From Rhizobium bangladeshense (lineage in GTDB: Bacteria > Pseudomonadota > Alphaproteobacteria > Rhizobiales > Rhizobiaceae), in assembly GCF_017357245.1 (NCBI RefSeq), contig NZ_CP071614.1:124001-188000 (forward strand): a DNA stretch of 64,000 nucleotides, in the 5' to 3' direction. The notes under the pieces were generated by a model, which saw nothing but the letters and a program-made list of their open reading frames with translations, ran no database searches and had not been told where the DNA came from. This document shows, in pieces, positions 6,542 through 23,319 of the stretch. Positions within the stretch are counted from its first letter, which is position 1, and the number at the start of each line of letters is the position of its first letter. The translations under genes were made by a program, and so were the position numbers.

Positions 6542-7708
6542 ATGAAAATCACCAACGTTCGGCCGTGGCTCATCAGATCGGATGCATCTTATTGGGGAGA
6601 GTTTCTGTTTGTCGAAGTCACGACCGACGAAGGGGTGAGCGGTTGGGGAGAGATCACCACCACGACAAGGCTTGCCAATCGGGCCCTCTGCACAATCTTG
6701 CGGCAGATCGGCGCCGCTTTGATGGGCGAGGACCCGGCGCGCATCGAGTATCTTTGGCACAAGGTTTTCCGTAGCTTCACCTACATGGGCAGCCGCGGCG
6801 CCGCCGTCGAATGCGTAAGCGCCATCGACATAGCCCTCTGGGACATCCGGGGCAAAGTCCTCGGCAAGCCGATATATGAGCTCTTGGGCGGACCGGTACG
6901 CGACCAAATTGCCCTCTACACCCATCCCAACCAGGCCAAGTTTACCAGCAAGGAGGCGGTGGTAAGGGAAATTCGAGACATCGTCGAGTCCGGCCACACG
7001 GCGCTCAAATTCGATCCTTTCCCGTACCAGGGCAGCGCCGCCGATGGACAGCCTCGCGAACAACGAAATGGCTACCTCGATGGCAGCATGACGCGCAGGG
7101 ATGAGCGTGAGGCCGCCGAACTCACTGCTCTGATCCGCGAAACGGCGGGCCCTGATGTCGACATCCTCATCGATGCGCATGGCCGGTTCGACGTTCCCAC
7201 CGCCATTCGCCTTTGCCGCAGTCTCGAGGAAGCCGGTCAGATCGACTGGTTCGAGGAGCCCTGTCCGCCCGAGAGCCTCAACGCTCTCAGACAGGTCCGC
7301 GAGAAGGTCAGCGCCCCTATCTCGTGGGGCGAGCGCGGCCACACGAAATGGGATTTCGTGCCGGTGCTCGAAAAAAGGCTCGCCGACTACATCATGCCTG
7401 ATGTCACCTGGACCGGCGGCATTACTGAACTCAAGAAGATTTCTGCCCTGTGCGAAGCCTACTACATTCCCGTCTCGCCGCATGACGCCGCAGGGCCGAT
7501 CAACGTGGTTGCCGGAGCGCAGGTGATGATGACCGTTCCGAATTTCTACAAGCTTGAAACGTCAGAGTGGAACCTCGGCAAATACGATCACTTGATCGAC
7601 ACACCACTCGATGTTTCCAACGGCAACCTCACGCTTACGCCCAAGCCTGGTCTCGGCGTTGAGATGAACCGCGAATATCTTCAAAACCACGAGATAGAAC
7701 TCGACTAG
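6542..7708 (+). CDS. Enolase-superfamily (mandelate racemase/muconate lactonizing) dehydratase
   Basis: A full-length member at 388 residues. The capping domain starts MKITNVRPWLI and the barrel holds Asp-x-His in IDAHGRF, Glu in FEEPCPP, Glu in SWGERG and a catalytic His in SPHDAAGP. This is the acid-sugar dehydratase pattern, as in galactonate and gluconate dehydratases. An insertion around residues 160-185 (PYQGSAADGQPREQRNG) is typical of the mannonate/gluconate-type branch but does not settle the substrate. It is the first structural gene after the GntR regulator. Confidence 0.86.
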   Translation: MKITNVRPWLIRSDASYWGEFLFVEVTTDEGVSGWGEITTTTRLANRALCTILRQIGAALMGEDPARIEYLWHKVFRSFTYMGSRGAAVECVSAIDIALWDIRGKVLGKPIYELLGGPVRDQIALYTHPNQAKFTSKEAVVREIRDIVESGHTALKFDPFPYQGSAADGQPREQRNGYLDGSMTRRDEREAAELTALIRETAGPDVDILIDAHGRFDVPTAIRLCRSLEEAGQIDWFEEPCPPESLNALRQVREKVSAPISWGERGHTKWDFVPVLEKRLADYIMPDVTWTGGITELKKISALCEAYYIPVSPHDAAGPINVVAGAQVMMTVPNFYKLETSEWNLGKYDHLIDTPLDVSNGNLTLTPKPGLGVEMNREYLQNHEIELD

Positions 7709-7774
7709 CCAACACCGCTCTCGGCCGCCCCAGCGTACGCGGCGATGGGCTCCCCACCAGAACGAGGAAAAGTC

Positions 7775-9136
7775 ATGCCAGAGGCATATTCAGCCGACGA
7801 GGCGCTCAATCGGGTGAACACGCATTCCAAGCCCTCAGACCTTCGCATCACCGACATGCGGGTAGCCGAAATTACCGGAGCGCCGTTCGCCTCAGTGCTG
7901 CTCAAGATTTACACGAACCAGGGCATCGTCGGGCTGGGCGAGGTGCGCGACGGCGCCAGCGCCACCTACGCGCTGATGCTGAAGAGCCGGTTGCTTGGTG
8001 AAAATCCTTGCGACATCGACCGCCTGTTTCGCCGGATCAAGCAGTTCGGTGGCCACGGCCGGCAAGGTGGCGGCGTATCGGCGGTTGAAATCGCCTTGTG
8101 GGACCTTGCCGGAAAAGCCTACGGCGTTCCTATCTACCAGATGCTTGGCGGCCGTTTTCGGGAGAAAGTGCGCCTCTATTGCGATACCGACGCCGCGGTG
8201 GCGAGCGGCACCGCAACCGGAAGGCGCCTCAAGCAGCGCATGGAGCTCGGCTTCACCTTCCTCAAGATGGATCTGGGTCTGATGCAGATCGCTGATGTGC
8301 CCGGTGCGGTCGTCTTCCCTGCCGGTTCACTGGAAGGGTATCGAAGCAGTCCCCTTCGGGGGCCGCTGAAGACCATGGAAGAGCGGCGTATGCGCAACGC
8401 TTCATACGATCTGCATAACGTCCCGCACCCGTTTACCGGCCTGCACTTTTCGGACAAAGGCCTCGATCTGCTCGAGCAATACATCGCCGAAGTCCGCGAG
8501 GTCATCGGCATGGATGTGCCGCTGGCGATCGATCATATCGGCCATATCTCGATGCAGAATGGCATCCGCCTTGCCAGGCGAATCGAGAAATATGTGCCGG
8601 CCTGGCTCGAGGATGTGATCCCATGGCAGTATACCGAGCAATACCGACAACTCCAGGACGCCACCACGGTGCCGATCTGCACCGGCGAGGATATATACCT
8701 TAAGGAGGGCTTCGAGCCGCTGCTGAACAGCGGCGGTGTCTCCGTTATCCACCCTGACCTGCTCTCCAGTGGAGGTATCCTCGAGACCAAGAAGATCGGC
8801 GACATGGCGCAGGACCGAGGTGTCGCCATGGCCATCCACATGGCAGAAAGCCCGATCGCCGCGATGGCGGCCGCACATGTCGCGACCGCGACCGAAAATT
8901 TCATGGCGCTCGAATACCATTCCGCCGATGTCGACTGGTGGGACGATATCGTCACCGGCCTTCCCAAGCCGCTGGTAAAAAACGGCTTCATCACTGTTTC
9001 GGACAAGCCGGGCCTTGGCATCGACGATGTCGTCGACGAGGTGATCTCAGAGCATCTGCAGCCGGGCGTCGCCGGCATCTGGCAACCTACGGATCACTGG
9101 GACGATGAGTATTCCTGGGATCGCACCTGGAGCTGA
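7775..9136 (+). CDS. Enolase-superfamily protein, probable sugar-acid dehydratase
   Basis: A 453-residue member with a longer N-terminus than its neighbours. I choose ATG at 7775, preceded by GAGGAAAAG, over the upstream in-frame start at 7745. The barrel shows Asp in AIDHIGH, Glu in LEDVIPW, Glu in GEDIYLKEG and a His in AIHMAESP. The metal ligands look intact, but the local sequence around the bases differs from the gene at 6542, so the two enzymes probably act on different substrates or steps. The C-terminal tail is rich in Trp and acidic residues ([14 protein letters not shown]), which is unusual for the family. Confidence 0.82.
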
Positions 9137-9150
9137 GGCAACGAAAGAAG

Positions 9151-10350
9151 ATGAAGATCACCGATCTCCGCTGTGCCGTTATCGGCAGACACCCGATTGT
9201 CCGGATCATCACGGACGAGGGCCTCTATGGCCTGGGCGAAGTCGAATTCACCAAGTCATACCTCAAGCCTTTTGTGCTGCATTTTCGTGAGGCGCTGATC
9301 GGCGAGGACCCGACCGACGTCGAAAGAGTAATGCTGAAAATCCGCCAGCGCGGCTCCTTCAAGCCGTACGGTGCGGCGGTGAGCGCGATCGAGCATGCGC
9401 TTTGGGATATAGCCGGCAAGGCCGCCGGCGTGCCCGTCTATAAACTGCTCGGCGGCAAGGTGCGGGACAAAGTGCGCGTCTACAACGGCTCGGTTCGCCA
9501 GAAACGCACTGGCGATCGGCCGGAAGACTACGCCGCTGACGTCAAGTGGATGATGGAGCAGCCCCAGAACTTCTTCATGATCAAGCAAGGAATCTCGTTC
9601 CACTCCAACATGAAGGACAGCATTGAGGACTTCCACTACGGTGTGACGCAGAAGAAGGCCGGTTATCACGGTGCCATGGACCAGGGCGTGATCAGCGAGC
9701 GCGGCTTCAACCATATGCTCGACTGCGTGATCGCGATGAAGGAAGTGCTGGGCGACAAAGTCAGCCTGGCGCTCGACTGCGGCCCGGGCTGGATGCTGCC
9801 CGATGCGATCAGATTTGCTCGCGCGGTGGAGAAGTACAATTTGATGTGGCTCGAGGACATGCTGACAGGAGACTACGTGCCGTGGGTCAACCCGCAGGCT
9901 TATCGGGAGCTGACGACCTCCACCTCGACCCCGATCCATACCGGTGAGCAGATCTACCTCAGGCACAATTTCAAGGAATTGATCGAGACGCAGGCGGTCC
10001 GCGTCATCGGCCCCGACCCAGCCGACATTGGCGGGATTGCCGAGCTTAAATGGGTGGCTGAGCACGCTTACATGCACTCGATCCTGATGGCACCGCACGG
10101 CACGGCTAATGGGCTGCTCGGCCTCGGCGCGTTGATCAACGTCTGCGCCACGTTGCCGGCGAATTACATCGCTTTCGAATATCCCACTGCGTCCGACCCG
10201 TGGTGGGAGGATCTTGTCATCGGCCTGCCGTCGCAGATCGTCAAGGACAGCATGATCGACCTGCTGGAAGCGCCGGGGCTGGGGCTCGACATAGACGCCG
10301 AAGGGGCCAGGAAATATCTGATGGAAGAGGATGCGGGGTTTTTCGACTGA
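9151..10350 (+). CDS. Enolase-superfamily protein with altered Asp-x-His motif
   Basis: A 399-residue member starting 14 bases after the preceding paralogue. The fold signature is clear: IEHALWDIAGKAAGVPVYKLLGG in the capping region (given here in part), then Asp in ALDCGPGW, Glu in LEDMLTG, Glu in HTGEQIYL and His in APHGTANG. The second-strand motif is Asp-Cys-Gly rather than Asp-x-His, so the usual paired base is absent and the chemistry may differ (for example racemisation, or one-base dehydration). It completes the plus-strand arm of this catabolic locus. Confidence 0.82.
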   Translation: MKITDLRCAVIGRHPIVRIITDEGLYGLGEVEFTKSYLKPFVLHFREALIGEDPTDVERVMLKIRQRGSFKPYGAAVSAIEHALWDIAGKAAGVPVYKLLGGKVRDKVRVYNGSVRQKRTGDRPEDYAADVKWMMEQPQNFFMIKQGISFHSNMKDSIEDFHYGVTQKKAGYHGAMDQGVISERGFNHMLDCVIAMKEVLGDKVSLALDCGPGWMLPDAIRFARAVEKYNLMWLEDMLTGDYVPWVNPQAYRELTTSTSTPIHTGEQIYLRHNFKELIETQAVRVIGPDPADIGGIAELKWVAEHAYMHSILMAPHGTANGLLGLGALINVCATLPANYIAFEYPTASDPWWEDLVIGLPSQIVKDSMIDLLEAPGLGLDIDAEGARKYLMEEDAGFFD

Positions 10351-13174: not shown

Positions 13175-13525
13175 TCACTCCCTTGGAGCTGCGATCTGCT
13201 GCTTTATCGCCTGGATCTCTTCGGTAAGCTTGTCGACATCGCTTTGCGATGCGGCTTCTGTCTTGGGGACTTCGATGTTCCCGTAGTCATCACAATCATC
13301 GGGGATAGCGTATCTGAAGCGAAGCTGGGCAGCGCCATCTGTCGCACTGACGACGATCGTACCTGCGCCGCTGATGAGCGGCACGGATATTTCATACATA
13401 TCACCAGGGTTCACATCTAGTTTTTCAAGCTTTTTACCGCCTATGTCGGAATACGGATAATGCCCGTTGCTCACCGTGAGCTCTGTGTATTGTTCTTCGA
13501 AGTGAACTTTCACTCTATATGGCAT
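13175..13525 (-). CDS. Unknown 116-residue protein, last gene of YcaO operon
   Basis: I do not recognise this protein. It has no signal peptide or membrane segment. The first 80 residues look like beta strands (YRVKVHFEEQYTELTV, then YEISVPLISGAGTIVV), and the end is a charged helix (DVDKLTEEIQAIKQQIAA) that could be a short coiled coil. Only one Cys is present. It lies at the 3' end of the minus-strand operon led by the ligase at 22966. Possible roles are modification substrate, immunity or scaffold protein; the sequence does not choose between them. Confidence 0.6.
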   Translation of the reverse strand: MPYRVKVHFEEQYTELTVSNGHYPYSDIGGKKLEKLDVNPGDMYEISVPLISGAGTIVVSATDGAAQLRFRYAIPDDCDDYGNIEVPKTEAASQSDVDKLTEEIQAIKQQIAAPRE

Positions 13526-13550
13526 GGCTGCTCCTCCTCGTTAGATCGAG

Positions 13551-14027
13551 CTAGTCGTTGCTGAGGCGACCATTGCGATGGGCCATTCTAAGGGTGATGG
13601 CGTAGGAGCTGGGCGATCTTTTACCCGGTAGCTGCGAATCCAGAATCAATGTTTTCGCGTCACCCAGGGCTGTCGAGATCTCCAGGATCTGCTCGGCACT
13701 GCCGATGCGCCACATCTGGTAGCCCGGTATTCTATCGAAGCCACAACCCACTGCGGCTTCAGCATTGGGACCTGTGATAATAAAGATCCGGATGGAGTCG
13801 AACCGATAGCAGTGACCGTCGAAGGCGTAGCCATAGGCGAGCACGGTCGATCCGGTTATCTTCGTTGGACCTCCCAGCCTCAATAGCAGTGCCGTTCGAC
13901 CCGGAAGCCCAACGTCCAAGGTGGCAACTTGATTGTCGTCATTCAGGTCTATTCCGTAGAGTATGATCTGGCCCGCCACATAGGGGTAGCCAGAAGGTGA
14001 AGGTGCTGGAACGCTGTCGTCTGCCAT
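13551..14027 (-). CDS. Unknown 158-residue protein in YcaO operon
   Basis: I do not recognise this protein. It begins MADDSVPAPSPSGYPYV and has alternating hydrophobic stretches suggesting a beta-rich fold (GQIILYGIDL, TALLLRLGG, IRIFIITG). Two Cys residues fall in GHCYRF and VGCGFDR. There is no signal peptide. It sits 19 bases after the HEMGH protein gene and 25 bases before the 116-residue gene, so it is probably co-transcribed with YcaO and TfuA. A modified substrate or a protein that binds the product are possibilities only. Confidence 0.6.
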   Translation of the reverse strand: MADDSVPAPSPSGYPYVAGQIILYGIDLNDDNQVATLDVGLPGRTALLLRLGGPTKITGSTVLAYGYAFDGHCYRFDSIRIFIITGPNAEAAVGCGFDRIPGYQMWRIGSAEQILEISTALGDAKTLILDSQLPGKRSPSSYAITLRMAHRNGRLSND

Positions 14028-14046
14028 CGATGCCTCCCGTCGTTGG

Positions 14047-15267
14047 TTAAAAAATGCCGCGCCACCTCATGCAATCTTCGAGCTGATCGAGAAAGGCGAC
14101 CCCGCGCCCGCGGCTGGCGGCCTCGAGGAAGGCTGACGCCGCCGCTTCGAAGGTCAGGCTGTCGGGGTCAAGATATTGCCACGAGGGAACAATCGCCTCG
14201 CCGACGATGTCGCGCGCCTCTTGCAGGGCAGCCTTCACCGCGAAATGCCGCAGTTCATAGGATGCCCCCGGGGTCTGCAGCCCTTCTTCGATCAGCACCG
14301 GCGCCATCTGCCGGCGCAGATCGCTGAACCGCCTCGGATCGATATCCGACAGGCCGCGCTCGAAGAGCAGCGACTGGTAGACCTCGATGAGGCAGTCGAA
14401 AAGGCCTGATGCAAAGGGTTTCGACTGGTCGTGCACCTCGCGGCTGACATCGCCGATGCGAAGCGAGTTGTTGAGTGACCGCAGCTGTTTCTCCTGGCTG
14501 AGCTCGGCGAATTTGTCGAGTTCGTTGTGCAACAGCAGATTTCCGCCGGTGCGGCGCAGCAGCCGGTCGAGCGCCGTGTCGAAGTGCAGCAATCCCAGCA
14601 GCGATATGAAATCGGCGATCGCCTCATGGTAGGAGAAGAAATCGCTGCCGGCGCCGTCGCCTTCGAGAATGCCGAGTTCGCTCAAGAGAATGAGGTGGCC
14701 CATTTCGTGGGCGACCGCGTCGAAATTCAGCGCGAAACAGGAGGCAGGGCGTTTGCCTTCACTCTCACCCAGTTCGAGGAAGCCGAAGCCGGATTGCGCG
14801 TTTTGCCAATGAGGGATGCGCGGAATGATTTCCAGCCGTTCGAGCGTCGGCTGGAAGAACCAGACGAGCGGGCGTGCGAGATAGCTCTCGCAGATGTCGA
14901 GAACGCGGCGGGCGCAGGCATAGCTGTGCGCCGCAAGGAATGCCGGCGAGCCGGGCCCGATGTGATCGAAATGCCCCTCGGCATCCGGCTCGGCCGGTGG
15001 CCTGAGCAGGCCCGGATAGGGCGGGATATAGGGCGCGGCATAGGGCGATTTCGCTTCGACGGGATTGGCCACATAGATCCTGCCGTCGGATGGCCCGGCC
15101 AGGATCGGCCCCGCTGAGGGCCCGATCCACACCACTTCGGGCTTTTCATAGCCGGGAATGAAGGGTGGTTGTGGAAAGACGAGGAAACGCGTGCCCAGCC
15201 GCCGCTCCGAAGCGGCTGCCTCACCTGCGCCCTGCGGATGTGTGATGGCATCCAATGCTGCCCCCAC
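14047..15267 (-). CDS. Thermolysin-like (gluzincin) HExxH protein in YcaO operon
   Basis: A 406-residue protein with a zinc-protease signature: HEMGH at residues 187-191 and YHEAIADF with the third ligand Glu near 215. The HExxH...EAxxD layout and the gap of about 24 residues match the M4/thermolysin group of gluzincins. No signal peptide is seen, so it may act in the cytoplasm, unlike secreted thermolysins. The N-terminal 100 residues are Pro-rich (PYIPPYPGLLRPP). In a RiPP-like operon a protease could remove a leader peptide, but that is inference from neighbours. Confidence 0.65.
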   Translation of the reverse strand: MGAALDAITHPQGAGEAAASERRLGTRFLVFPQPPFIPGYEKPEVVWIGPSAGPILAGPSDGRIYVANPVEAKSPYAAPYIPPYPGLLRPPAEPDAEGHFDHIGPGSPAFLAAHSYACARRVLDICESYLARPLVWFFQPTLERLEIIPRIPHWQNAQSGFGFLELGESEGKRPASCFALNFDAVAHEMGHLILLSELGILEGDGAGSDFFSYHEAIADFISLLGLLHFDTALDRLLRRTGGNLLLHNELDKFAELSQEKQLRSLNNSLRIGDVSREVHDQSKPFASGLFDCLIEVYQSLLFERGLSDIDPRRFSDLRRQMAPVLIEEGLQTPGASYELRHFAVKAALQEARDIVGEAIVPSWQYLDPDSLTFEAAASAFLEAASRGRGVAFLDQLEDCMRWRGIF

Positions 15268-15312
15268 CGCTCGTTGCCCAACGTCAAGCGATCTCGGACT
15301 ATAGCAGTATTA

Positions 15313-16074
15313 TCAGTCATTCGACAATAGCGTGTCTAGCAGATCAAAATACTCCATATCGTTGGCAAATGACTCCGTAAGTTCAAAATCGCCAGGATGG
15401 TGCTCGTTCGATCTGTTGATCTTCGGATCAGCCAGATATTTCAGAAGATTTACCGCATCGACCCGCTTCTGGCTTTCCGCTTCGGCTCTCAGCCAGCCTT
15501 TTAGTGCTTCACGCTGGCAACTGAGTTCCGAGTATTTTTCAGCGGCCGTCAAAAGCCTGGAGAATGATCTTTCACTGAAGTGAAGCGAGCGCGCCATCGA
15601 TTCAAGCTGCCATCTCAAGGGGCTTTCGATCAGCCCCAGGCGTTCGGCCTTTCTGAGCGCCAGCCTGATGTCGATGAGCGCGTCGCCGAGTGCGCGCGAC
15701 CCGAGTGCGGCCGGCGCCATCGGGACGGTGACGTCGGCATCGTCGGCAAGCGGGAACCTGCGATACCATCGAAAGATCAGCCCATGCCCGATCATGCCGT
15801 AGGGGGCGAGTTCGGCGGCCCGAAGCGCGCCGATGCTGGCCGCGCCATGGACCGCCACACCCCGGGCGATCGCCCAGAGGATCTCCTGGTGGCGGACGGC
15901 CGGGCGCTGCGCGAAGGCGCCGTCGATCAGGACGATCGCCGCCGGCGCGTAGCGCGCCACGGCCCGCACGATATCGGCGCAGCCGGCCGGCGGAAGGTAG
16001 ATCGCATCCAGATGAGCCCGGGCATCCGCCTCGGAGAGTGTGGGGCCGAGAAACACCACGATGTCATCGCGCAA
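15313..16074 (-). CDS. TfuA-like protein, YcaO partner
   Basis: A 253-residue protein of the TfuA family. The core is visible as VVFLGPTLSEADA, then IYLPPAGCADIVRAV, VLIDGAFAQRPAVRHQEIL and GAASIGALRAAEL. TfuA proteins partner YcaO enzymes: in thioviridamide-type pathways and in methanogen McrA they are tied to thioamide formation, and one is linked to trifolitoxin production in Rhizobium. I choose TTG at 16074, which has GGAGG six bases upstream and overlaps the end of the YcaO gene by 11 bases; the open frame before it only shadows YcaO. The C-terminal third is helical and charged. Confidence 0.85.
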   Translation of the reverse strand: MRDDIVVFLGPTLSEADARAHLDAIYLPPAGCADIVRAVARYAPAAIVLIDGAFAQRPAVRHQEILWAIARGVAVHGAASIGALRAAELAPYGMIGHGLIFRWYRRFPLADDADVTVPMAPAALGSRALGDALIDIRLALRKAERLGLIESPLRWQLESMARSLHFSERSFSRLLTAAEKYSELSCQREALKGWLRAEAESQKRVDAVNLLKYLADPKINRSNEHHPGDFELTESFANDMEYFDLLDTLLSND

Positions 16075-17212
16075 GATCGGCCTCCGGATTGGTTTCCAGC
16101 GGCGGCGCAACCACCCGCACGACGTGAAGCGGGATCTGATCATCCGCATGCAGAACGACAAGAACGGCCGCCTTGGCGCCGGCCAGCGCCAAGGCCTCGA
16201 CGATCGGCCGGATCGGCCGCTCTTCGCCGGCAGCCCCGTCGTCGCAGAAGGAGCGGCCGCCTCTTGCCAGCTGACCTCGCCAGGCCGCCAGTTCTCCCGC
16301 GTCGGGATAGGCGTAAAGCTCCGTGCTGATATCGTCGCGCGCCGCCGAAATGACGCCGAGGCGGGACTGGCAGGCTTCCAGCAAGGCGCTGGTCAGCGCG
16401 CGATCGTGGCTGACGTCGCAGCCGAAGCCTTCGGCCGGCAGGGGCGCAAAGGGGGCTCTGCTTTCATCCTCCATCACGTGGCACCAGTAGATCGGCAGGG
16501 CGTGCGGCGCCGGGATCTGCCAGATGCCGGTGACGAAACCGGCCTTGGCAAGCCGCTGCAGGATCTGACCGGCGCTGCCGGAGCGAACCGTGCGGCTGTC
16601 GATCTGGAAGCGGTCGAAGAAATGCGGCGTCTTCATCGCCGTGCAGCGCGCCTGCCGCTCGAGGATTTCCAGGCAGGCATGCCGGACGGCGCCAGTCAGG
16701 CTGGTGCCGGCCGCAAGACCCGTCGTATCTCTCGGCAGCCAATGCGGATGCGGCGACGGCATGGTATAGGCGGAATCGACAAGCGCCAGCGGCACCGCCA
16801 TTCTTCGGCCGGAAAGGAGATCGAACCCGTCGATCCAGCCAAGCCTCTCCACGTCTCGCCCGGCGCCAAGATAGGACCAGTCATTCTCCCGGTTCATCGC
16901 GCCGAAGGTCGCGGTGAAGACGCGGTCGGCGGCAATTCGTTCCGAGGCCCATCCCTCCAGCGCTTCCATCAGGCCCGAGATCGCCGCCAGCGGCACGGTC
17001 AGGCCTTTGCCCTGGCTGACGGCGACGGAAAGCGCCCGCGGCCTGACCACCTGGACGACGGGAATGCCGATCCGGTCGAGCTCTGTGACCGAACCGAGCC
17101 GGGTGATGCCGTATTCGCGCCTGCGCGCCAGAATGCGCTGCACCGTCCGCCATGGATCCGCAGGCGAGGCGAGGGGCATGTCGAAGATGGCGTCGAGCCC
17201 CCCGTCGTCCAT
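16064..17212 (-). CDS. YcaO-domain ATP-dependent peptide cyclodehydratase/thioamidase
   Basis: A 382-residue YcaO enzyme, which uses ATP to activate a backbone amide. Family motifs are visible at SGLMEALEG (residues 79-87), ACLEILERQ (about 179-187) and ALLEACQSR (276-284) followed by ISAARDD. The first motif ends in Gly where many relatives have Arg. No fused E1-like or RRE domain is seen, so substrate recruitment would need another protein. The direct pairing and overlap with TfuA favours thioamidation over azoline formation. It begins 11 bases after the cyclase/ATPase gene. Confidence 0.88.
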   Translation of the reverse strand: MDDGGLDAIFDMPLASPADPWRTVQRILARRREYGITRLGSVTELDRIGIPVVQVVRPRALSVAVSQGKGLTVPLAAISGLMEALEGWASERIAADRVFTATFGAMNRENDWSYLGAGRDVERLGWIDGFDLLSGRRMAVPLALVDSAYTMPSPHPHWLPRDTTGLAAGTSLTGAVRHACLEILERQARCTAMKTPHFFDRFQIDSRTVRSGSAGQILQRLAKAGFVTGIWQIPAPHALPIYWCHVMEDESRAPFAPLPAEGFGCDVSHDRALTSALLEACQSRLGVISAARDDISTELYAYPDAGELAAWRGQLARGGRSFCDDGAAGEERPIRPIVEALALAGAKAAVLVVLHADDQIPLHVVRVVAPPLETNPEADLAR

Positions 17213-17223
17213 CGCGCTTCTCC

Positions 17224-20214
17224 CTAAGGCCTCGTCATTTCGGCGAGCGCCCCGCTGGCGCGTTCGACGAGCCAGGCGGCTTTCTGCCCTTCGGCAACCT
17301 GCATCGCGCGCGTCAGATCTCTCCTGATCACCGAGAAAGGCTCGTGCAGTTCGAGCCTCAGTTCGGCGCTGAGGCGATAGAGTTCGGCCAGCCAGAACCG
17401 CTGGCCGCTGCTGCGGCCGACAGTAATCGCATTCCGGATGATGGCGAGCGCCTCGGCCGGCTTGCCGAGCCGCCGCAGCACCTGCGCATGCATGTCGCTG
17501 TGCATCGAGACATTATCGTCCGTCCCCAGTTGCTGCTGCTGCAGCAGACCGTCCTCGAAACGCTCCCGGCCGCGTTCACCGGTCGAGGTCATCAGCTCCG
17601 CCCAGCCGCAATACATGTTGGCGCGCGCCCGGCTGGCGGCCAGCCCGTGCCGCTCGGCAAGGGCCAGCATCCGTTCGCCGAGCGCCTGCACATCGTCGTA
17701 GCGGCTTTGGCAGCGGCGGAGCACGATGGCGTAATAAAGCGCATGCACCATGCTGCCGGCGTGATCGGTCGCGGCCGCCCATTCCAGGCACCGCCCGATC
17801 GCTGTTTCACTCGCCTCGGATTGGTCGAGCAGCAGATAGGAGAGGGCGCTCTCGCCGAGCCCGCAGACCTTCGCGTCATGCCCGCCGAAAAAGGCGCGAT
17901 TCCTGACCGCGCGTTCCGGATCGTAGAGCTGAAGGCCGTCGGCAACGCAATCGAGGCAGAAGCCGTGCTCGCCGGCGTGGAAGCTGGTGGCCCAGCCGCA
18001 ATGATAGGATTGAAGCCTGGTCTCCCGATCCTCGACCGCCTGCATGTCGCCGACGAGAATGCGCGCGCGCGACTGCTGCGTCAGGATGTTCGGCGCCGTG
18101 AACCACCAGCCCCAATAGACCGGGAAATGGTTCGTTCGCACGGCGGGCGGCTGTCTGCGCAGACGCTGCATGGCGCGGGAATAGATCCGGCGCGCGTTCT
18201 CCGATCCCTCGCCTTCGAGGGCGGTCGCCACGACGCCTTGCAATTCGCTGAGGCTGAGGGCGAGCTCGGTGCGCTCGGGGTGGCGGCGGGAGAGGCTTGC
18301 GACCTCGCGCGCACAGAGTTCGAGCGAGACTTTTGCCTCGTGCATGGCAAAGCGCAGCACGCTTGCTTCCGCCGCCGCCAGGGCGAACCGGGCGGCGGCG
18401 TCATGCAGGCCCGCCTCGGCGCATTGCCAGGCGGCGATTGCAGCCGGCAGGCTGGGTTTTGACTCTGCGATCAGCAGATCGGCAATCCGCCGGTGGATGC
18501 GGCGCCGGTCGCTCTTCAGAAGGCTGGCATAGGCGGCCTCCTGCGTCAGCACGTGCCGGAACTGAAAGGAACCGTGGACGACGGCGGAACGCTCGATGAT
18601 TCCCTGCGCAAGCAGCCGGTCGATATCGACGTCGACACTGCGGCGACTGACGCCTTCAAGCAGGTAGACGAGCAGCGAAATGCTGAATTCGCGGCCGATG
18701 ACGCTCGCAATTTGCGCTGCCCGCCGGGCCGAACCGGTGGCCGCGAGTTTGGCCGAAAGCAGATCGTTGAGCGAGGTGACGCTGCCCTCCCGCAGCAGCC
18801 CTTTCCATTCGGAGGGCGACTGGCCCGTTGGCTGCCTGCCGCGGAAGAAATTGGCCAGTTCCTCGGCGTAGAGCGGCATGCCGTCGCATTGATCGAGAAT
18901 GAAATCCGAAAGGCCGGGCGGCGGATGTTCGCCCCAGATCGAGGCAACGAGATCGCGCACCGCGGCAGCGCTCAGCCCCGACAGCTCGATCTCGGTTGCA
19001 ACCGCGAGCGACCGCCGGATTCTCGATGTCTGCACCACGAGGAGCGGCAGCCCGGCGGCGAGCGATCCCAGCCTGTCGATCAGCTCCAGCGTCATGTCGT
19101 CGGCCCAGTGAACATCCTCGAAGACGAGCAGCGTCGGCACGGCGGGCGACTTGCAGGTCAGGATCTCGGCCGCGGCCTCGATCACCTTCCGCCGGAAGGC
19201 GAGTCCGGAAGGGTCGGAGACGCGGATATTGCGCGACGGCGCTGCGGAACGCTCGGTCGTGAAGGTGAGGATCGCCTCGGCGACGCCTGCCTCAATCTCC
19301 CGACCGGATGTCCGAAGCGCCTGCAGCAAGGGCTCACTGTCGCCATCCCTGAGCGCCGAAGCCTCGCCGACCAGCGTCTCGAGGAACGAAAGGAAGGGAT
19401 GCAGCGGCTGGCTCTCCAGGCGCCTGCCGCACTGAAGGACGATGGTCTCATGCGCGGTCTGCCGCAAATGCCCGGCGAATTCGCCGACCAGCCTGGATTT
19501 GCCGATGCCTGCCTCGCCGACGACGGCGATCAGGCTCCCCTTGCCGCGGAGCGCCGAATTCCAGGCGATGGAGAGGGCGGCAAGCTCCTTGTCTCTGCCC
19601 CGGATCGGCCGTTCGGGCTCCCGGGAGGGCGAAGCTTCGGCGGCCGAGCGGCGCCGCTGCTGCGGCCGCCAGAGCGCAACCGGATCGTCGAAACCCTTCA
19701 GCCTTGCCTCGCGCAGCAGGCTGTAATCGAATTTGTGCCGGGTGAGCTGGACTGTGGAATCGGCGACGAGCACCGAATTGGGCTCGGCCTCCGCCTGCAG
19801 GCGCGCGGCCAGCACCGGCGCCGTGCCGACGATCTCATCGCCTTCTGTGGAGAAGACCACCAGGCCGGTGGCAACCCCGATCCGCAGGCGGAACGGCGTG
19901 CGCCCTCTGGCTTTGCTGCCGGTGGCGATCTGCAGCAGCTCAAGGGAGGCCTGCACCGCGCTTTCGGCGGCATCTTCGGACTGCTCGGGAAATCCGAAGA
20001 AACAGCAGCCGCCATCGCCGAGCCGCTGATGAAGAAAGCCTCCGTGCTTGTTGATGATCGTTTCGGCACTCTGATGTAACGCCGAAACCGATCGGAAGAA
20101 TTTCTCCGGCTCGCTGCGCAGCAAAAGCTCCGTGGAGCCGACAATGTCATAGAAGAGGGCGGTAACCTGCCGCCGCTCACCTGTGAACCGAATTCGCGTG
20201 TCGAGCGTTTTCAT
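17224..20214 (-). CDS. Class III nucleotide cyclase / AAA-type ATPase / TPR regulator-like protein
   Basis: A 996-residue multidomain protein. An N-terminal class III cyclase domain carries metal-binding Asp23 (FYDIVGSTE) and Asp67 (LGDGG). In the place of the usual transition-state Asn it has Val134 (APVLAARL), although Arg138 is kept, so cyclase activity is doubtful. An STAND/AAA ATPase follows with Walker A GEAGIGKS near 233-240 and Walker B-like VLVFEDVHW. The C-terminal half is helical and TPR-like. No DNA-binding domain is evident. I take ATG 20214 because upstream codons run into the next gene. Co-transcription with YcaO suggests a nucleotide-dependent switch for the pathway. Confidence 0.8.
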   Translation of the reverse strand: MKTLDTRIRFTGERRQVTALFYDIVGSTELLLRSEPEKFFRSVSALHQSAETIINKHGGFLHQRLGDGGCCFFGFPEQSEDAAESAVQASLELLQIATGSKARGRTPFRLRIGVATGLVVFSTEGDEIVGTAPVLAARLQAEAEPNSVLVADSTVQLTRHKFDYSLLREARLKGFDDPVALWRPQQRRRSAAEASPSREPERPIRGRDKELAALSIAWNSALRGKGSLIAVVGEAGIGKSRLVGEFAGHLRQTAHETIVLQCGRRLESQPLHPFLSFLETLVGEASALRDGDSEPLLQALRTSGREIEAGVAEAILTFTTERSAAPSRNIRVSDPSGLAFRRKVIEAAAEILTCKSPAVPTLLVFEDVHWADDMTLELIDRLGSLAAGLPLLVVQTSRIRRSLAVATEIELSGLSAAAVRDLVASIWGEHPPPGLSDFILDQCDGMPLYAEELANFFRGRQPTGQSPSEWKGLLREGSVTSLNDLLSAKLAATGSARRAAQIASVIGREFSISLLVYLLEGVSRRSVDVDIDRLLAQGIIERSAVVHGSFQFRHVLTQEAAYASLLKSDRRRIHRRIADLLIAESKPSLPAAIAAWQCAEAGLHDAAARFALAAAEASVLRFAMHEAKVSLELCAREVASLSRRHPERTELALSLSELQGVVATALEGEGSENARRIYSRAMQRLRRQPPAVRTNHFPVYWGWWFTAPNILTQQSRARILVGDMQAVEDRETRLQSYHCGWATSFHAGEHGFCLDCVADGLQLYDPERAVRNRAFFGGHDAKVCGLGESALSYLLLDQSEASETAIGRCLEWAAATDHAGSMVHALYYAIVLRRCQSRYDDVQALGERMLALAERHGLAASRARANMYCGWAELMTSTGERGRERFEDGLLQQQQLGTDDNVSMHSDMHAQVLRRLGKPAEALAIIRNAITVGRSSGQRFWLAELYRLSAELRLELHEPFSVIRRDLTRAMQVAEGQKAAWLVERASGALAEMTRP

Positions 20215-20353
20215 TTGGCGTCGCCCCACCACCACGGAAGCCTTGTTCAGGACATCCGATTTATTGCTTGCATGCAAGCTTTTCGTGTGGGGTTGCTGAT
20301 ATATCCGCCGTTTCGCCTCAGCCTGCACCAGCCGGGCGACGCGCGGAACCGGC

Positions 20354-22966
20354 TCAGACCGTCTCTGCCGCCATGGCGCGCCCGCCCGTGCCGCGAGCCA
20401 GAGCCAGCGCGCCAAGCACATCGCGAAGCTCCGCCGCGGTTCTGTTGGCGATGATGCCGACCGCCAGGCCGCCTGATATCGCCAGCAGATGGAAGAGGGG
20501 AGCCGGCAGCAGGCCCGCTGCCTGGGGCATCAGCAGTTCCGGCACGAAACGGTGCAGCAGGTAGATCGGAAAGGCCGAGACCGCGATCAGTGTCACCAGG
20601 CGCCCCAGCCGCACTGGCAGGGGAATGCGCGGCAGGTAGAGAAGCGCCATCAGTGCGGAAAAGATCGTCAGATATTTGACCGTCGTGCCGATCCAGAGCG
20701 TTTCCCAGAAGGCGAGATAACCGAGCACGGCGGCGGCAATGACCGTCAACATGATCCGTTGCGCCGGCTTGCCGGCGAGCCCCGCGCACCAGCCGAACAT
20801 GCCGAGATGCAGCCCCCAGTAGAGGGTGAAAATCTGCCGATTGCCGATATCGAAGACGAACGGCAGCGAAAACCGCGCGGTGACCGCCAGCGCCAGCAGC
20901 ACGAGCGAGAAGGCAAAGGGCCGCGCCCGCGCCAGGCTGCGCACCTGAGGCGCCGCAAAAATCAGCGAGAAGACGAGAAGCGTCTGCGCATAGGCTTCGA
21001 TGAACCAGTAGAGATAGGGAAGCATCTCGTGACGCTCCGGCTCGGCATAGCCGAAATTGCCGGTCAGCGTGATCGAGGCCCAGGGAATGGTGCCCCAGGC
21101 GAGCGCATAAGTGGCGATGATCAGAAAATAGGGAATGAGGACATTGACCGCCGGCCGCAGCGCATGGCTGAAATTGCCTGCGAGGAAATGGCCCGATTGG
21201 AAGCGCGCCAGGCTGAAGCCGACGAGGAGCAGCATCACGCCCGATCCGCCAGGAATGGGCCAGAGCATCTCGTGATGGGTGACGACGAGCAGGATGGCGA
21301 TAGCCCTCAGAACCAGATCGGTCGGCAGCGCCCTCAACTCCGCGCTCCGGCCCGGCGCGGTGACCCGCGGGGCTATATCGAGCTCGGCGATCCGCTTCTG
21401 CTCCCAGCCTTCCGGCAGCTCGACGCCAAGCCGGTCGAGCGCCATCGTCAATTGCAGGAAGCGCAGCGAATCGCCGCCGAGCGAGACGAAGCTGTCGTTG
21501 CGGCTGACCGTGTGGGGGTAGAACACCCCCGCATAGGCATCGAGCACGCTGAGCACAGCCGCACGGCTCGTCTCGCGCGCCGCCAGCATCTCCTCGCCGA
21601 GGACCGCATAGTCGACCTTGCCGGAGGCAAGCCTCGGAAGCTCGCGTCGTACCCTGACGGTAACAAGGCTGGCGGGAAGATGGCTCGCCTCGACCAGCAC
21701 CTGGAGCGCCCGGTTGGCGTCACCCGCATCGGTCACATAAGCCTGCAGCCCGTGATCGTCGCCGACGACGGCGGCTGCGATCCCCGCTTCGGCCAGAACC
21801 TGCTCCATGATGTCGAAGCCGATCCTGAGCCCCGCGACCTTGGCGAAACGGCTTTTGCGGCCGACGATCCGGTAGAAACCGTCCTCGTCGCGCATGGCGA
21901 TGTCGCCGGTCATCAATGCCGCGACCTCGGCCCCCCGCTGAAGATCGGCGCGGTCCGTACCGTAGCCCATCATCACGTTCGGGCCGGCATAAACGAGCTC
22001 TCCGGCAACACCGGCTCGGTCGAGCGGACGCCCGTCATCGCCAACGAGGCTGAGGCTGCCGCCTGGAATGGCGATGCCGATCCGCTCTTCATGGTCGCCC
22101 AAGCTTTCCGGCGGCACGAAGGCGATGCGGGCGGCGGCCTCGGTCTGACCGTACATGACGAAGAAGCGGCCGCCGCTCGCGCGCATATGGTCGCGGTAGA
22201 GGCGGATCAGTTCCGGCGCCAGCCGGCCGCCCGCCACCGTCATGAAGCGCAGCGTCTTCAGCGCCTTCGTCCGGAAACCGGTCTTCTCCATCAGCTCATA
22301 GGAATAGGGCACGCCCGAAAGATTGGTGCAGCCGCTGTCGCCGAGCAGTCTTGCGAAATCCTCGCTGACCACGGAGACGCCGGGAATGAAGATGCTGCCG
22401 CCGGCAACCAGATGCGAATGCAGCACGGAGAGGCCGTAGGAATAGTGAAGCGGCAGGACGAGCGCGGTCCTGTCGGCAGGGGAGAGCTCGAGATAGGAAG
22501 CGATCGAGCGTGCATTGGCGTCAAGATTGGCATGAGACAGGCGAACGGCCTTCGCCAGCCCCGAACTGCCCGATGTCATCAGCAGCAGAGCGAGATCCGG
22601 ATGCAGCGGCCCAGCGCTCTGCCCCGGCCGGCTTTCCTCGACGAGCCGCCAGCGGCCATCGGCCGAGCGGAAGGTGAAGTCCGGCTGAAAGGCTGACAGG
22701 AACTCTCGCCACAGCCTGTCGTCGCAGGGCGGCAGCATGGCCACTGCATGGCCGGCGCGCAAGGCGCCGAGATAGGCGATGATCACATGTTCCGAGAGAT
22801 CGGCCGAAATCGCCACAAGCCGCTTTTCGCCGCGTCCCAGCCGTTCGGCAAAGCGCAGTGTGCGGGTGTTGAGGTCGGCATAGGAGAGCGTCCGTCCATC
22901 GGCGAAGATGAGGGCCGGGCGCTGATCGGCGCGAGCGATTTTAGAAATGAGGTCGGCGGGGATCAT
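20354..22966 (-). CDS. Hybrid adenylating ligase / carrier protein / membrane acyltransferase
   Basis: A 870-residue fusion. Residues 1 to about 460 form an AMP-binding ligase (LLLMTSGSSGLAKAV near 127-141, VMYGQTEAA, TGDIAMRDEDGFYRI). A phosphopantetheine carrier follows (FVSLGGDSLRFLQL, Ser near 500). The last 300 residues are a polytopic acyltransferase-3-like membrane domain (VVTHHEMLWPI, then about ten hydrophobic segments). Such a protein could activate an acid, load it on the carrier and pass it to an acceptor at the membrane. It is the first gene of the YcaO operon. Domain calls are firm; substrate and acceptor are unknown. Confidence 0.82.
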   Translation of the reverse strand: MIPADLISKIARADQRPALIFADGRTLSYADLNTRTLRFAERLGRGEKRLVAISADLSEHVIIAYLGALRAGHAVAMLPPCDDRLWREFLSAFQPDFTFRSADGRWRLVEESRPGQSAGPLHPDLALLLMTSGSSGLAKAVRLSHANLDANARSIASYLELSPADRTALVLPLHYSYGLSVLHSHLVAGGSIFIPGVSVVSEDFARLLGDSGCTNLSGVPYSYELMEKTGFRTKALKTLRFMTVAGGRLAPELIRLYRDHMRASGGRFFVMYGQTEAAARIAFVPPESLGDHEERIGIAIPGGSLSLVGDDGRPLDRAGVAGELVYAGPNVMMGYGTDRADLQRGAEVAALMTGDIAMRDEDGFYRIVGRKSRFAKVAGLRIGFDIMEQVLAEAGIAAAVVGDDHGLQAYVTDAGDANRALQVLVEASHLPASLVTVRVRRELPRLASGKVDYAVLGEEMLAARETSRAAVLSVLDAYAGVFYPHTVSRNDSFVSLGGDSLRFLQLTMALDRLGVELPEGWEQKRIAELDIAPRVTAPGRSAELRALPTDLVLRAIAILLVVTHHEMLWPIPGGSGVMLLLVGFSLARFQSGHFLAGNFSHALRPAVNVLIPYFLIIATYALAWGTIPWASITLTGNFGYAEPERHEMLPYLYWFIEAYAQTLLVFSLIFAAPQVRSLARARPFAFSLVLLALAVTARFSLPFVFDIGNRQIFTLYWGLHLGMFGWCAGLAGKPAQRIMLTVIAAAVLGYLAFWETLWIGTTVKYLTIFSALMALLYLPRIPLPVRLGRLVTLIAVSAFPIYLLHRFVPELLMPQAAGLLPAPLFHLLAISGGLAVGIIANRTAAELRDVLGALALARGTGGRAMAAETV

Positions 22967-23003
22967 GCTCGCGCTTCGGATTGGCAGAAAACTGGCCGAA
23001 GGG

Positions 23004-23031
23004 CGTATAATCCTTGATTATCGCAGTCAAG
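23004..23031 (-). promoter_or_regulatory. Candidate sigma-70-type promoter of YcaO operon
   Basis: On the minus strand CTTGAC (23026-23031) and TATACG (23004-23009) are separated by 16 bases, close to the CTTGAC/CTATAT pattern of rhizobial housekeeping promoters. It would start transcription near 22997, giving a leader of about 30 bases before the ligase ATG at 22966. No other promoter of this quality was seen between 22966 and 13175, which supports one long transcript. Confidence 0.5.
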
Positions 23032-23233
23032 TAATTTGCAGGTGCATATCTGCGCCGCGCCAACTGTTTCGGCCCTGGCACGCGCTGGGAGATGGGTCGC
23101 CACCCCCTCGGCGGCTGTATCACTTCGGCGGCAAGACCAGCCCTGCAGCGCCGGATGGCTGTTCGTTCCAATCCGGGCGCAGCCGATGCCAATCACCATC
23201 GGGCGCGGCGGCGCGTTGACGCTTCCGTAATCA

Positions 23234-23255
23234 CGGCAAGCGCCTTTGCTTGCCG
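23234..23255 (+). other. Perfect hairpin in the leader region of the GGDEF gene
   Basis: Eight-base arms CGGCAAGC and GCTTGCCG enclose the loop GCCTTT. The structure is GC-rich and stable, but only a weak pyrimidine run follows. It could be a terminator for transcription arriving from the left, although no plus-strand gene lies there, or a leader element of the diguanylate cyclase mRNA. Confidence 0.35.
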
Positions 23256-23319
23256 GGCGGCTCTTTTCTCATAGGATTTCTGCGCCATCTCTTGCCGGGG
23301 CAACCAGACAGGGTGCTTT

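Follow-up and report, generated by a model that had tools for sequence, protein, structure and literature searches.

A 64-kb stretch of Rhizobium bangladeshense DNA (the window, part of a 462-kb contig) carries an operon in which five genes, P6-P5-P4-P3-P2, form a conserved core encoding a cyclase-like/AAA ATPase protein, a YcaO protein, a TfuA protein, a zinc peptidase, and P2, a protein outside known families. We consider it an even call that the five genes constitute a maturation cassette in which P2 is a ribosomal precursor whose C-terminal tail is thioamidated by YcaO-TfuA and released by P3. The folded β-domain of P2 would act as an unusually large leader and the disordered C-terminal tail as the core. 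YcaO, using ATP, and TfuA, delivering sulfur, would convert at least one backbone amide of the tail to a thioamide; the thermolysin-like P3 would release the tail or its repeat units; and P6, a STAND-like (signal transduction ATPase with numerous domains) protein with a mostly degenerate cyclase, may regulate or scaffold maturation, a role that is guessed. We infer P2 as the substrate, the tail as its modified part, and P3 as its cutter; the modified residue in window P2 might be Gly135 of PGKRSP (Gly in 80/81), which is likewise a guess.

A profile built from nine P3 sequences was run over one genome per species (84,980 species) and returned 113 relatives. The best 80 loci were kept, a set that is biased toward relatives of the query and does not include the YcaO-less clade described below. 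The order and strand of P6-P5-P4-P3-P2 were identical in 80/80 loci, with a gene split over at least two open reading frames (ORFs) in some of them (YcaO in L057; P6 in L078, L080, and L096, among others). In the window, the five genes are separated by 11-45 bp or overlap, as the TfuA and YcaO genes do. Pairwise distances of the five proteins co-varied over 81 loci (P3-P5, r 0.97; P3-P2, r 0.92; lowest, P6-P2, r 0.86), as expected from joint inheritance. The conserved core is five genes, and the operon is real rather than a chance neighborhood; the pairing of YcaO and TfuA in a first-pass annotation of this DNA holds, now as part of one conserved operon with the peptidase.

The spread of the operon is patchy and largely alphaproteobacterial in the genomes sampled. 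Strong peptidase hits were obtained in 69/148 genomes of the genus, in 21/397 genomes of the order (22 matches, E <1e-84), in 8/385 of the class (E 1e-20), and in 8/398 of the phylum (E 1e-15; one of them weak, at 75 bits), each count including the window's own. Gluzincin matches below 60 bits in the order and genus scans were treated as unrelated zinc peptidases (of these, only L139 was inspected), and L140 (a P2 remnant without peptidase) and L172 (a 1.3-kb fragment) were left out of the counts. The operon is also present in R. johnstonii 3841 (P6, RL_RS31045; YcaO, RL_RS31040; TfuA, RL_RS31035; peptidase, RL_RS31030; P2, RL_RS31025; small protein, RL_RS31020), and the nearest named record seen was R. 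bangladeshense plasmid p2, whose peptidase is 98.5% identical to window P3. The first-pass annotation had proposed to regard the operon as a chance neighborhood if most relatives carried YcaO-TfuA without the other five genes. This test is ill-posed: TfuA occurs in 142/148 genomes of the genus compared with 69/148 for the strong peptidase hit, so most TfuA genes of the genus belong to other pairs. The window's own genome has two of these (L141, G000:C3:432000-450000; L142, G000:C1:3320000-3338000), each beside a large ORF (664 and 614 aa) that resembles, by eye, a regulator of the SARP (Streptomyces antibiotic regulatory protein)/AfsR type.

P2 lies directly downstream of P3 in 80/80 loci and is the likely starting material because the tails of its relatives end in short repeated peptide units. 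Its AlphaFold model (predicted local distance difference test [pLDDT] 79.5; predicted template modeling score 0.69) consists of a β-rich part and a tail, the latter being the low-confidence part (pLDDT falling to 63, 45, and 42 over its final residue blocks, three in all). Conservation was calculated in two groups, comprising 19 and 44 of the 81 loci, with 18 intermediates excluded. In the first group, the tail scored 0.78, the hairpin (residues 59-85) 0.77, and the rest 0.41-0.61; in the second, the values were 0.64, 0.81, and 0.25-0.60. Between two conserved blocks, residues 26-58 are hypervariable (mean identity 0.41 in the first group and 0.25 in the second), and in some relatives this segment is long and Cys-rich; P2 of L115 has 19 Cys overall. 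An isolated 3' remnant of P2 that includes the C-terminal part was seen at L140 (G029:C72, ~9495-9641), with no peptidase match nearby.

The repeats are found in more distant relatives. An order-wide search yielded a more distant peptidase clade, from which 14 loci (L121-L134) were fetched. YcaO and TfuA were present in 14/14 and a P2-like protein followed the peptidase in 12; in L121 and L130, the contig ends before P2 or inside P3. Tandem-repeat tails were found in 11 of these 12 P2 proteins. They resemble thiovarsolin precursors and consist of several near-identical pentapeptides or hexapeptides, e.g., (VSGAK)n, with pentamer units SGAKV, SGARV, SGSKV, RGASV, SGSRV, and GGGKV and hexamer units GRSMMT, SGANLG, and YSGGKA. 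Comparison of the copies within 11 arrays (L123 contributing 8 of its 9 units) gave pooled nonsynonymous (pN) and synonymous (pS) differences of 0.036 and 0.601, a ratio of 0.06; the repeat peptides are held by purifying selection while their codons drift. Searches for P2 itself returned 386 homologues with the near profile and 684 with the distant profile (best 8000 candidates scored), including Ruegeria and Leisingera. In 120/120 homologues among the matches listed, a repeat detector found tails with a period of 5 and between 3 and 9.6 copies; since tails were part of the search profile, this figure does not count as an independent frequency. Six class-level loci comprised three with repeat tails (VSGAR, VGRSDL, and GMNV), one with an Arg-rich tail, one of the near type, and one (L168) with no recognized P2; YcaO was not recognized in L169. 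Its linkage, together with the tail repeats of its relatives and the selection on them, makes P2 a candidate leader/core precursor of the kind found in ribosomally synthesized and post-translationally modified peptides (RiPPs).

The first-pass annotation had reported no obvious short precursor. A search for separate small ORFs covered 11.5-25 kb of the window and admitted frames of 20-130 aa that overlapped listed genes by less than half. Eight candidates remained, and six matched in at least 2 of 11 near relatives. Five of the six lie in 22941-23303, upstream of P7; they fall on both strands and in different frames, a pattern of conserved DNA and not of a conserved reading frame; the sixth (20215-20454, plus strand) is antisense to the P7/P6 junction. 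No convincing separate small coding ORF emerged from this range; the best precursor candidate, P2, had been listed as one of two unknown proteins and was overlooked.

The enzymes of the core were identified by Pfam/NCBIfam scans, the source of all family scores given here. P5 matched YcaO (PF02624, 145.8 bits) and P4 matched TfuA (PF07812, 126 bits). Within the Protein Data Bank (PDB), the sole sequence match of P5 at E 0.001 was MJ1094 (6pe3), and the best match of P4 was the TfuA-domain protein 6xp8 (E 5e-24). YcaO residues E83, E86, E182, E185, and R186 are kept in 99/99 homologues and E279 in 98/99; judged by alignment with MJ1094, E83, E86, E182, and E185 occupy ATP-motif positions. YcaO proteins associated with TfuA prefer Met, His, and Ala in their three ATP motifs, according to PMC8120280, and M82, H178, and A280 of P5 stand at apparently matching places. 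In organisms outside high-sulfide habitats, thioamide-forming YcaO proteins tend to rely on TfuA and a ThiS-like carrier (PMC13063428). With a YcaO domain carrying the ATP-motif residues and TfuA beside it in 80/80 loci, the system would be filed, by gene content only, with the TfuA-YcaO (thioamide-forming) systems. No E1-like/ThiF protein or fused cyclodehydratase, the partner expected in azoline-forming thiazole/oxazole-modified microcin (TOMM) systems, was recognized among the seven genes of the locus, in agreement with the first-pass annotation. The zinc peptidase was also correctly called from its HEMGH motif: H187, E188, H191, E215, and D219 of P3 are invariant in 98/98 homologues, giving HExxH with a downstream Glu, and the predicted model has an M36/M4 fold. 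No signal peptide is visible in P3.

P6 matched a cyclase domain and AAA_16 (66 and 73 bits). It is the genome's best scorer against the TOMM kinase/cyclase model TIGR03903 (312 bits, cut-off 705.75; alignment from profile position 282), and P6 of L124 scored 426 bits; another protein of the genome scored 244 bits, so the likeness is partly generic. No kinase family was matched by P6 in the scan. The two Asp residues that we take to bind metal are kept in 82 and 84 of 87 sequences and the presumed transition-state Arg in 85/87; Asn four residues before this Arg, presumably the other transition-state residue, is found in only 3/87 and is Val in the window, and the Lys taken to be that of Walker A is kept in 86/87. 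On these residues, P6 appears to lack the class III nucleotide cyclase set, and its cyclase domain is apparently mostly degenerate. Among the 14 distant loci, a P6 homologue was found in two (L121 and L124) and a weaker cyclase-like match nearby, on either strand, in six; L131 has a cyclase-like ORF by eye, and none was seen in five (only L124 and L125 were checked with Pfam). The Chelativorans P6 (L109) matches AfsR at 19.6 bits through its N-terminal part.

A whole clade overlooked by the first-pass annotation keeps the peptidase and P2 without YcaO-TfuA. Peptidase matches in the 148 genomes of the genus fell into 44 scoring >600 bits and 25 scoring 351-367 bits. Twenty of the latter were read together with plasmid locus L145 (R. 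ruizarguesonis), and 21/21 carried, all on one strand, genes for a cyclase, the peptidase, a P2 whose repeats are of the SRSGG type, and a small protein resembling P1. YcaO or TfuA matches at E 0.001 were obtained in 0/21 loci (10-15 kb fetched). The cyclase of L145 reads DGINVAVRL, with the Asn present. In a peptidase tree made by a quick method (74 rows: 40 of the 80 loci and 12 of the 21 YcaO-less loci, with L169 labeled YcaO-positive and no rows for L168 and L170), the YcaO-less rows formed one clade (Shimodaira-Hasegawa-like approximate likelihood ratio test 100) among YcaO-positive rows, which requires one change; long branches make the deep order unsure. Because the YcaO-less loci form one clade among YcaO-positive ones, loss of YcaO-TfuA appears to be the simpler reading with a midpoint root. 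The linkage of P2 and the peptidase outlives thioamidation in this clade, which keeps both.

Thioamidation thus seems to have been added onto a platform of leader and protease, since one Rhizobium clade retains the cyclase, peptidase, P2, and repeat tail without YcaO-TfuA. Extended tentatively to the whole family, and held by us as a possibility rather than a probability, this picture is of a folded leader and a thermolysin that release short peptides from repeat tails, with YcaO-TfuA as a removable module: most branches would make thioamidated Gly-containing peptides, whereas one Rhizobium branch, having lost YcaO-TfuA, would release SRSGG peptides unmodified by means of that leader and protease and a cyclase. 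If true, peptide maturation would include a protease-centered class of which several hundred members are already known.

Several observations weigh against P2 as a thioamidated precursor. The tail of window P2 and its near relatives is single and non-repeated, and P2 is long for a precursor, with a large folded part. The tails of L131 and L167, both YcaO-positive, are Arg-rich and non-repeating. P2 of L122 matched PF00805, a pentapeptide repeat that is a structural motif (24.1 bits, cut-off 20.2), the only match among three distant P2 proteins scanned; window P2 gave none. No exporter was recognized among the seven genes, as the first-pass annotation had also noted. Finally, repeats do not imply thioamidation, because a repeat-tail clade exists without YcaO-TfuA. 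The PF00805-like tail and the YcaO-less loci, which keep cyclase, P3, P2, and repeat tail in 21/21, favor an alternative in which P2 has a structural or regulatory function and is matured by the peptidase only, while YcaO-TfuA acts on something outside the operon. We think this unlikely, as P5 is linked with P2 and P3 in 80/80 loci and co-varies with them, and the YcaO-less loci are one clade among YcaO-positive ones on the tree, for which loss is simpler.

Less probable still is that P2 is a folded substrate like McrA, carrying one thioglycine at Gly66 in the hairpin YGYAFDGHC, with another role for the tail. According to PMC5589413, the thioglycine of McrA belongs to the motif [YF]G[YF]DLQDQC, whose Cys is at +7, in the context LGFFGFDLQDQC; PDB entry 1mro reads GFYGYDLQDQC. 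The corresponding YGYx5C occurs in P2 of 72/80 loci and in 118/120 homologues among the matches listed, compared with 0/2780 other six-frame ORFs of at least 150 aa in those loci (5/2780 for the looser [FY]G[FY]x5C). Near relatives have Gly at position 66 in 80/81 and Tyr at 67 in 81/81, whereas the YcaO-less clade has Ala at position 66 in 21/21, a single event. The best NCBIfam matches of YcaO and TfuA are also McrA-thioamidation models, although below cut-off (NF033432 for TfuA, 177.6 vs 235.2 bits; TIGR03266, 117.3 vs 365). However, Gly66 is replaced in five YcaO-positive loci (Ala in L054, L128, and L167; Ser in L131 and L137), the motif lies in a predicted β-strand of a strand-turn-strand hairpin, and Cys73 is Thr in 5/81 near relatives and was not found at this place in the distant clade. 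Cys73 and Cys95 are both present in 76/81 or replaced together by Thr and Ser in 5/81 (all Mesorhizobium), never mixed, which suggests a disulfide or metal pair.

The two remaining alternatives concern the neighbors of the core. That P1 is the precursor and P2 a helper is very improbable. P1 evolves fast (orthologues 33-40% identical, compared with 67-86% for their core neighbors) and in 21/21 YcaO-less loci the gene after P2 encodes a small protein like the one of L145, but the P1 profile matched only 9/80 YcaO-positive loci, far below P2, with the proviso that fast-evolving versions may escape it. The proposal of the first-pass annotation, later acylation of a RiPP by P7 at the membrane, is hardly credible: P7 shares the strand of the operon and immediately precedes it in the window and the window's closest relatives, but in only 7/80 loci (L057, L071, and L073 being too short upstream to show it, and a weak 48-bit minus-strand match in L084 left out), and full-length homologues in four other genomes are away from the peptidase. 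Full-length P7 was found in 9/41 relatives, one of them G046, and the other eight were placed: four at the operon and four (G001, G008, G009, and G019) on another contig or ~830 kb from the genome's peptidase. In R. bangladeshense PLR8-1a (L144:1804-4415), P7 is annotated as two coding sequences; it is one ORF in the window.

All seven ORFs of the first-pass annotation were found, on the minus strand and where it had placed them (listed below), and the annotation of the near-identical locus L144 served to correct the starts of TfuA and P6. A single unit of all seven, as had been envisaged, is not supported, since the conserved genes are five; the P7-P6 gap is ~139 bp once the P6 start is re-set as in L144. 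The YcaO, TfuA, cyclase/AAA, and AMP-binding (P7, 155 bits) domain calls were borne out and PP-binding was borderline (20.8 bits at a cut-off of 20.8), whereas the tetratricopeptide repeat (TPR) of P6 (19.9 bits, cut-off 30.1) and the acyltransferase-3 domain of P7 (28.8 bits, cut-off 31) fell below threshold. P1, P2, and P3 had no family match at E 0.1.

Features of the operon and its neighbors, with positions in the window
Feature	Position	Strand	Description
P1	13175..13525	-	116 aa; small, fast-evolving accessory protein encoded downstream of P2
P2	13551..14027	-	158 aa; candidate precursor/substrate; β-domain (~residues 18-130) and C-terminal tail
P2 tail, residues 131-158 (SQLPGKRSPSSYAITLRMAHRNGRLSND)	13554..13637	-	candidate core peptide
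P2 hairpin, residues 59-85, YGYx5C (Y65-C73)	13773..13853	-	rival modification site
P3	14047..15267	-	406 aa; zinc peptidase (gluzincin), thermolysin/fungalysin fold
P3 zinc site, HEMGH (187-191) ... E215, D219	14611..14709	-	
P4, TfuA	~15313-16074	-	~253 aa; start taken from L144
P5, YcaO	16064..17212	-	382 aa
P6, cyclase-like domain, AAA ATPase, and C-terminal region with weak TPR	~17224-20214	-	~996 aa; start from L144
P7, AMP-ligase/carrier/acyltransferase-3 fusion	20354..22966	-	870 aa; neighbor, not core

Elsewhere in the window, the partly low-GC segment 36349-46415 is likely an anti-phage defense island; it contains a PDC-M68A/B pair with an ABC-3C C-terminal domain and DUF2326, a DrmD-like SNF2 helicase, and a TmtA/Sacsin-like protein. 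Three adjoining paralogues of the mandelate racemase/muconate lactonizing enzyme family occupy 6542-10350.

A text search of the literature found no description of a cyclase/YcaO/TfuA/gluzincin system and no paper stating what the TfuA-YcaO pairs of the genus modify; by that search, the operon is a newly described variant of the TfuA-YcaO systems. Mining with antiSMASH gave >500 TfuA gene clusters in Rhizobium (PMC8120280), among which loci of the present type were probably counted; the main text of that paper has no word beginning "cyclase", and its sole "peptidase" is a legend entry for prolyl endopeptidase. TfuA is near-universal in the genus, and one set of its pairs now gains a candidate substrate, a partner protease, and a YcaO-less clade for comparison.

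Among the closest known systems, the thiovarsolin-type RiPPs (VarA/VarY/VarT, Streptomyces) share adjacent YcaO and TfuA genes; as described in PMC6511847, the precursors of such TfuA-YcaO systems share a conserved leader and range from non-repeating to five repeats. The present system differs in its large β-domain leader, operon-encoded zinc peptidase, and cyclase/AAA protein, and a repeated core is absent from window P2 and present in its distant relatives. None of the thiovarsolin partners (heme-oxygenase-like, amidinotransferase, and ATP-grasp proteins) was recognized among the seven genes, three of which have no family. The methanogen McrA thioglycine system resembles it in the best NCBIfam models, the MJ1094 match, and the [YF]G[YF]x5C motif of P2; scores are below the equivalog cut-offs, however, P2 is not McrA, and neither the Cys nor the Gly is universal. 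P6 aligns with TIGR03903 over the cyclase-AAA-C-terminal part, but it has no kinase match, remains below the cut-off, and is accompanied by no recognized fused cyclodehydratase among the seven genes; a large Ser/Thr kinase is carried by Burkholderia nitrile hydratase leader peptide (NHLP) clusters, according to PMC2887384. Unlike M36 fungalysins and M4 thermolysins, P3 has no Pfam M4/M36 match and no visible signal peptide and is encoded within the operon. With the present system, the RiPP repertoire would gain a thermolysin-like protease of this kind, together with a leader of very large size.

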